This document shows, one piece after another, positions 37,444 to 38,310 of a stretch of 64,000 bases of DNA (within the stretch, counting starts at the first letter, position 1; the number at the start of each line of letters is the position of its first letter). A model generated the notes under the pieces. That model was not told where the DNA came from. It saw only the letters and a program-made list of their open reading frames with translations, and ran no database searches. This DNA comes from Lachnospiraceae bacterium 28-4. GTDB lineage: Bacteria > Bacillota > Clostridia > Lachnospirales > Lachnospiraceae. The stretch lies in contig KE159599.1 of assembly GCA_000403275.2 (NCBI GenBank), positions 1,287,396-1,351,395 on the forward strand, given 5' to 3'. Position numbers and translations under genes: made by a program.

Positions 37444-37549
37444 AAGAATACCTCCGTTTTTTATATATTTTGTTATATTGCATTTTACAACACATGGGGG
37501 AAGATTTCCAGATGTAATTGTTCGATTGGGGAGAGGAGGAAAGGAGATG

Positions 37550-38004
37550 AGTCCATTTTTGCGAGGGGGAAAGGCGGGGCGGAAGGGGAGCGGGGCAGTG
37601 GGATGGCGGGGGAAGCGATGGGCAGCCAGCCGGGCAACAGGGAGTGGGGCAGCCGGGAAGCCGAAGCCGGCGGGGCGGGGATGTTTTGGCTGGAGCTTCC
37701 AATCGGATTTCACTAATGAAATGGGGATATATTGTCAAACCGATCGGGGCGGAAACAACGGGCATCCTGCCCTGTGTTTCCTGAAATTGCCATCCGTGGC
37801 AATTTCCTCCTGGGTATTCGACCATTTCATAAGTGAAATGGCCGATCGGAAGCAACAGCGCAAAAATCCCCGTCCCCGCCCCACCGGCTCCGGCTTCCCG
37901 GCTGCCCCACTCCCTGTTGCCCGGCTGGCTGCCCATCGCTTCCCCCGCCATCCCACTGCCCCGCTCCCCTTCCGCCCCGCCTTTCCCCCTCGCAAAAATG
38001 GACT
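37550..38004. repeat. Long GC-rich inverted repeat with structured spacer
   Basis: Arms 37550-37681 and 37873-38004 are each 132 bases and complementary except for two positions. The left arm is strikingly G/A-rich on the plus strand. The 191-base spacer carries a further imperfect pair (37696-37724 with 37822-37852), a hairpin GGAAACA/TGTTTCC enclosing GGGCA/TGCCC (37751-37781), and GAAATTGCCA/TGGCAATTTC (37783-37806). Base composition is far from that of the neighbours. Confidence 0.9.
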
Positions 38005-38153
38005 CCTTCGCCTCTTGAAGAAAAATCTTTCCATTTTAAATATCAAAAAAGAATAAAAACCCGGAAACCTACAAAAAATCTAACTAGTCAATCAGATTAA
38101 GCTATCAATACTAATCCGGCGGTCGGTTATTGGGGAAGGCGATTGTTTTGGCG

Positions 38154-38310
38154 GAATATTCTGATCCTGTCTTCTATAAAAATCTTTTTTGTGCCATGGA
38201 GCCAAGACCAGAAAAACAGGAGGACCCTTGTCCGAGTGTTTTTGCTTTACTGGTCCTGGCGGAATGTCCGGCACAATTAGATTTTTATAGAAGACAGGAT
38301 CAGAATATTC
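38154..38310. repeat. Second long hairpin element with 31-bp perfect arms
   Basis: GAATATTCTGATCCTGTC onward (38154-38184) is exactly complementary to 38280-38310. Inside, TTGTGCC/GGCACAA, GCCA/TGGC, GACCAG/CTGGTC, AAAAACA/TGTTTTT and GGAC/GTCC pair in nested order, giving one long interrupted hairpin. It ends 64 bases before the PFOR start codon. Confidence 0.88.

Follow-up and report, generated by a model that had tools for sequence, protein, structure and literature searches.

The window analysed here is a stretch of 64,000 nucleotides from the genome of Lachnospiraceae bacterium 28-4 (G000 below). Within it a putative ackA on the minus strand and a putative pyruvate oxidoreductase gene on the plus strand are arranged divergently, both labels being adopted from a first-pass annotation of this DNA, and between them lies a long palindrome. 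An inverted-repeat search places its arms at 37549-37681 and 37873-38005, each 133 nt long and 98% complementary, on either side of a 191-nt spacer. The annotation's near-perfect palindrome with 132-base arms is thus confirmed, with coordinates correct to about one base. Read on the minus strand, the 5' arm (37873-38005) is purine-rich and the 3' arm (37549-37681) is pyrimidine-rich. Folded as RNA the minus strand of the palindrome reaches -425.5 kcal/mol, compared with a mean of -200.5 kcal/mol for 100 dinucleotide shuffles (z -33.8), none of which attains so low an energy. Open frames run across the palindrome on both strands, and we take them, as the first reading did, to be probable by-products of composition.

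The spacer holds the sole Rfam match above its gathering score in the whole window. This is the TwoAYGGAY motif, RF01731, on the minus strand at 37693-37855, found by cmscan at 73.5 bits against a gathering score of 43 and covering positions 1-168 of the 168-position model. The first-pass view that the palindrome matches no standard element is therefore wrong for its core. The further hairpins reported in the spacer are present, for example one with 18-nt arms at 37707-37724 and 37822-37839, located in the RF01731 match. The first AYGGAY loop reads ACGGAT (37792-37797, minus strand), while the second, at 37764-37768 on the same strand, reads AGGAT and is degenerate in this copy. Matches to Hsp83 3'UTR, TP53TG1, sX7, MIR1858 and MIR408 over the palindromes were discarded, as they score under their gathering scores. 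Some 150 bp from this palindrome, at 38154-38310, there is a second, shorter palindromic element with 32-nt perfect ends; a 166-bp query made from it matches 13 places in the genome, itself included, and at least three of these (the one in the window, C1:873856 and C1:946814) have a TwoAYGGAY element no more than about 200 bp away.

The palindrome is one member of a large repeat family. A search of G000 (4.28 Mb in 7 contigs) with the 455 bp of the palindrome, in which 40 of 96 candidates were scored, returned at least 49 matches, mostly to the core and inner arm, so the single copy without homologue that the first-pass annotation had considered as an outcome did not occur. The RF01731 model gave at least 62 matches in the same genome (150 of 166 candidates scored). 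After de-duplication by core the family has at least 78 copies, with arms detected in 75, and comprises 56 copies of subfamily B, including the one in the window, and 22 of subfamily A. The total of 78 is a minimum because 20 stretches around terminal-repeat matches revealed more copies. Across 70 copies of this genome with arms of at least 60 nt, GC content is 59% in the arms (69% in mid-arm), 46% in the cores and 45% in the flanks, set in a window whose 8-kb blocks range from 39 to 49%, in line with the GC-rich arms originally described. The purine/pyrimidine skew noted at the same time also extends to the family: purines make up over half of the 5' arm, defined relative to the orientation of the core, in 69 of these 70 copies and in 29 of 30 in the relative G004, on either genomic strand.

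RF01731 matches were found in 12 of 16 genomes of the genus, at 3 to 58 per genome in that search (16 in the cultured relative G015), and in 45 of 299 genomes of the bacterial family when about 9 candidates were scored in each; copy numbers vary with the number of candidates scored in each search. In 15 other genera, each of twenty loci taken from among the top-scoring matches has an outer arm that continues past the model, 20-87 nt long and 0.77-1.00 identical, and the arm pairings of all 20 score higher than any of 60 pairings of random flanks. The mismatches in these arms (29 G-U, 23 A-C and 45 other, from the 18 loci with arms of at least 25 nt) show them to be more worn than the arms in G000. 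One locus of G000, L158 (C1:1396141-1396923), has perfect-looking ends and arms around another spacer, some 190 bp long, that lacks a full TwoAYGGAY core, and the ends and arms may thus be able to carry other cores.

The family has several marks of a transposable element. Its terminal repeat, CACGGAAATC[AC]ATTTT, has 105 matches in G000 with up to 2 mismatches, compared with 3 for a reversed control. Elements anchored by this repeat at both ends, in a set of 55 from five genomes, are approximately 300-450 bp long and contain no transposase gene of their own. In G000 the repeat anchors 36 out of 75 armed copies. The nine bases flanking these 36 match at a mean of 4.5 of 9 positions (2.28 when flanks are paired at random), and 6 or more positions match in 12 of the 36, compared with about 1.5% of random pairings. 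The tests were initially set for a 9-bp duplication, an assumption we abandoned because the per-position matches concentrate in the inner seven positions (0.47-0.58 compared with 0.23-0.28 at random; the outer two give 0.33 and 0.36). Since these seven carry most of the signal we read the duplication as 7 bp, with 9 bp as the upper limit, positioned one base outside CAC...GTG; among the 55 anchored copies of five genomes, lengths of 5, 7 and 9 were hard to separate. In the copy L047 the arrangement in G000 is GTTGAAAAC[element]GTTGAAAAACC, and both G004 and a further relative, G013, have a single GTTGAAAAACC there, an empty site. At L073 there is a decayed remnant in G004 and other sequence in G013, and at L048 a 70% match runs across the joint in G004. 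The copy in the window falls outside the anchored set: its terminal repeats are degenerate, reading GAGTCCATTTTT at 37994-38005 on the minus strand and, at the opposite end, GAGTCCATTTTT at 37549-37560 on the plus strand, and a target duplication is not recognisable there. The non-autonomous mobile element that had been proposed for this locus is nevertheless backed at the family level by many copies, common ends, target duplications and one empty site.

An ORF heuristic places 73 of the copies in G000 between divergent genes (25), sense (18) or antisense (23) to neighbours, or between convergent genes (6), with one unclassified; a few ORFs reach the edge of an element, so under this heuristic some copies may interrupt a gene. 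Among 129 copies, eight of nine pairs of close neighbours (less than 1.2 kb apart) are head-to-head, so insertion beside an existing copy seems to be favoured. No transposase gene with the ends of the family, and so no autonomous parent, was found at the terminal-repeat matches examined among 100 of the 105 in G000. One candidate, L157, at first resembled such a parent, its terminal repeats lying 1.9 kb apart and enclosing a DDE transposase gene; this gene belongs to a separate insertion sequence with its own ends and 6-bp duplications, nested in the loop of a core, and is hence not the parent.

This insertion sequence encodes a 440-amino acid transposase (Pfam DDE_Tnp_1, E 9e-31; above the NCBIfam cut-off for the IS4 family). 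The transposase has eight matches in G000, seven of them full-length and identical and one partial, and none in G004. In six of the eight copies (L179, L189, L192, L193, L194 and L195) the element lies inside the first AYGGAY loop, the same loop as that at 37792-37797 in the window, in both orientations, and copies with both sides present have 6-bp duplications; the other two are at CAGGAA and GAGGAA. The IS4-family element has therefore spread recently and shows a marked preference for its target. PMC1525189 describes insertion sequences directed at REP palindromes, such as ISPpu9 and ISPa11, and they resemble the present case in that several copies occupy one site of a palindromic repeat. 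The difference lies in the target, which here is the AYGGAY loop of the TwoAYGGAY core.

The most distinctive property of the family is the relationship between its arms. Among G000 copies with arms of at least 60 nt the median identity of the two arms within a copy is 0.962 for 52 copies of subfamily B and 0.961 for 18 of subfamily A. Between copies, arm identity is 0.54, compared with 0.49 for shuffled arms, and core identity is 0.77 and 0.84. If there were neither arm-to-arm copying nor selection for pairing, the two arms of a copy would be expected to diverge nearly as much as arms of different copies do. Of 579 substitutions in the 40 most similar arm pairs, each pair taken from one genome and one subfamily, 463 are mirrored, that is, present in both arms; these arm pairs have copies in common, so the mirrored changes are not independent events. 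Mismatches between the arms of 113 copies from five genomes comprise 187 G-U, 185 A-C and 131 other, together with 85 gap columns. The arm extension used initially stopped early on some copies, including that in the window, so a looser one was adopted and the mismatch counts differ between the two; stricter extension gives 143 G-U and 120 A-C in 91 copies. By fifths of the arm from the core outward the mismatches number 81, 99, 97, 170 and 134, a trend that is possibly an end effect of alignment. As selection on RNA pairing should favour G-U, arms without a wobble excess fit better with arm-to-arm copying at the level of DNA. The gene conversion that the first-pass annotation had suggested for the identity of the arms is accordingly our preferred reading, drawing on the identities within and between copies, the mirrored changes and the near-equal numbers of G-U and A-C.

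The core was used as a control for the wobble test. With base pairs chosen by RNAalifold the core has 67 G-U to 28 A-C, a choice that favours G-U by construction, whereas a fold made without G-U gives 182 to 168 over all pairs, non-conserved pairs included. At Watson-Crick thresholds of 0.80, 0.85, 0.90 and 0.93 the ratios are 46:36, 46:31, 41:16 and 33:14. We therefore rejected the 67:28 ratio as a firm contrast to the arms or as proof of RNA selection. The G-U excess in the core depends on the choice of pairs, its contrast with the arms is only suggestive, and the shifting counts make the power of the wobble test uncertain; copies also share history, so mismatch counts are not counts of events.

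Comparison of the same sites in relatives gives a view of how the arms change. In G004 an element lies upstream of ackA in the same place and orientation as that in the window, with arms that differ from those in G000 and match each other; both copies have worn ends and arms that are still 93-98% identical. In G013 ackA is close to the oxidoreductase gene with no element between them, and this genome has no RF01731 match. Nine sites are filled in both G000 and G004; eight of them are matched by both flanks and the ninth by a single flank, with flank identities of 77-93%. Two of the nine hold different subfamilies, A in one genome and B in the other (G000:C2:229289 and G004:C36:81937; G000:C4:6747 and G004:C96:4554, the latter matched on one flank only). 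At the remaining seven the cores are 0.72-0.83 identical, and the partner is the closest core in either direction at only two. Arms at the six common sites that were scored are 0.51-0.63 identical between genomes and 0.86-1.00 within each copy. This comparison supports fast change of the arms, and it suggests in addition that copies undergo exchange or re-insertion.

Taken together we consider it likely that the palindrome in the window is an old copy of a short, MITE-like non-autonomous DNA transposon whose arms are kept matched by arm-to-arm copying of DNA. A presumed transposase would insert the element, generating the short direct target duplication seen in the family. From the outside inwards the element consists of the common terminal repeat, two long complementary arms and the conserved TwoAYGGAY core. 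When the DNA is single-stranded, as in replication, the arms could fold back on each other, and a change in one arm would be copied to the other, presumably through template switching or through repair of mismatches in the hairpin, a process that may continue after insertion. Arms copied in this way drift in sequence yet remain complementary. A copy such as that in the window, with a worn terminal repeat, no visible duplication and arms still 98% complementary, is what would be expected if copying persists after insertion. Since cores at common sites are often not mutually closest and two of the nine sites hold different subfamilies, re-insertion or exchange may explain part of the change in the arms.

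Selection on a long double-stranded RNA, with compensatory changes passing through G-U pairs, could also keep the arms complementary and would likewise yield mirrored changes. In its favour, the core is an Rfam RNA motif and the whole element folds far better than its shuffles. Against it, G-U and A-C mismatches in the arms are nearly balanced (187:185, or 143:120 under stricter extension) and copies are sense (18) or antisense (23) to their neighbours about equally often; we consider RNA selection on the arms unlikely. The structured RNA gene proposed in the first-pass annotation may hold for the core, which matches RF01731, but the copies show no bias in orientation and the core wobble test is not firm. 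The related idea that TwoAYGGAY motifs are CsrA-sequestering small RNAs (PMC4333381), with the palindrome merely stabilising them, is compatible with the two GGA-type loops of the core and the single csrA gene of G000. However, csrA and RF01731 show no clear association in the 16 genomes of the genus (nine with both, three with csrA only, three with RF01731 only, of which two are 65% and 83% complete, and one with neither), and a CsrA sponge would leave the ends, duplications and arms unexplained; we regard it as very unlikely.

Alternatively, each transposition could pass through a single-stranded hairpin intermediate that restores the arms, or the elements at a site could be replaced by new insertions, with no copying in place. 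The different subfamilies at two common sites, the partner being the closest core at only two of seven, and the head-to-head arrangement of eight of nine close pairs all agree with this. It is harder to reconcile with the window copy and its G004 counterpart, whose ends are worn while their arms remain at 93-98%, and hairpin copying is not required for a DNA transposon that makes target duplications; we judge it unlikely. Palindromes trouble assembly, and an assembly artefact or a chance local inverted duplication might be suspected on that general ground. The same architecture is found in 75 copies of G000 and in copies from four separate assemblies (G001-G004), and matching outer arms above the 60 random pairings occur at 20 of 20 loci in the 15 other genera, which leaves an artefact barely conceivable. 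The replication or recombination site that had also been suggested has no specific support.

The separate ingredients of the element preferred here are all known. Like bacterial MITEs such as QMITE2, which has direct repeats of 7-9 bp (PMC10969869), it has terminal repeats, short direct repeats and a stem-loop fold, and lacks a transposase gene. MITEs are usually AT-rich according to the same source, a typical rather than defining feature, whereas the arms here are 59% GC in flanks of 45%, unique to each copy and near-perfectly self-complementary, and no parent insertion sequence was found at the G000 matches examined. REP and REPIN sequences (PMC3116915, PMC2817692) are likewise dispersed, extragenic, hairpin-forming, present in high copy number and found as inverted pairs, but REPs are short, at 20-40 bp (PMC3733652), compared with arms of about 95 nt and variable sequence here. 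Template switching that makes and maintains hairpins (PMC8794818) and the concerted evolution of palindrome arms in Nematomorpha mitochondria (PMC6649704) provide parallels for mirrored substitutions and for the upkeep of long near-perfect arms; those systems concern RNA genes and mitochondrial coding genes respectively, whereas the present one is a mobile family in bacteria, represented by many copies in parallel.

For TwoAYGGAY itself, Weinberg et al. (2010; PMC2864571) considered the motif probably an RNA and probably not cis-regulatory, the Rfam entry lists it as cis-regulatory, and Gardner and Eldai (2014; PMC4333381) put it forward as a candidate CsrA-sequestering small RNA. These descriptions mention only a poorly conserved further outer stem, whereas here the motif forms the centre of a dispersed element that also has ends, target duplications and long arms that match each other. 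In the open-licence literature surveyed, we found no published account linking TwoAYGGAY with a mobile element and no report of this combination of ingredients.

A bolder proposal, which we think rather unlikely, is that TwoAYGGAY is the folded heart of a transposon that moves as a single-stranded hairpin and is not primarily a regulatory RNA, one arm being copied from the other at each jump and between jumps, so that the arms are near-perfect and ever-changing. On our preferred reading, RF01731, an Rfam family without an assigned function, can be given an identity that is open to testing, that of a component of a mobile element, and the IS4-family element in its AYGGAY loop adds to the examples of insertion sequences that aim at a repeat. 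This one genome offers dozens of natural replicates, with more in relatives, in which the matching of palindrome arms by cells can be measured. If mirrored changes do arise without a wobble excess, compensatory change in a long stem would not by itself be evidence of RNA selection, a point that bears on the inference of RNA structures from covariation.
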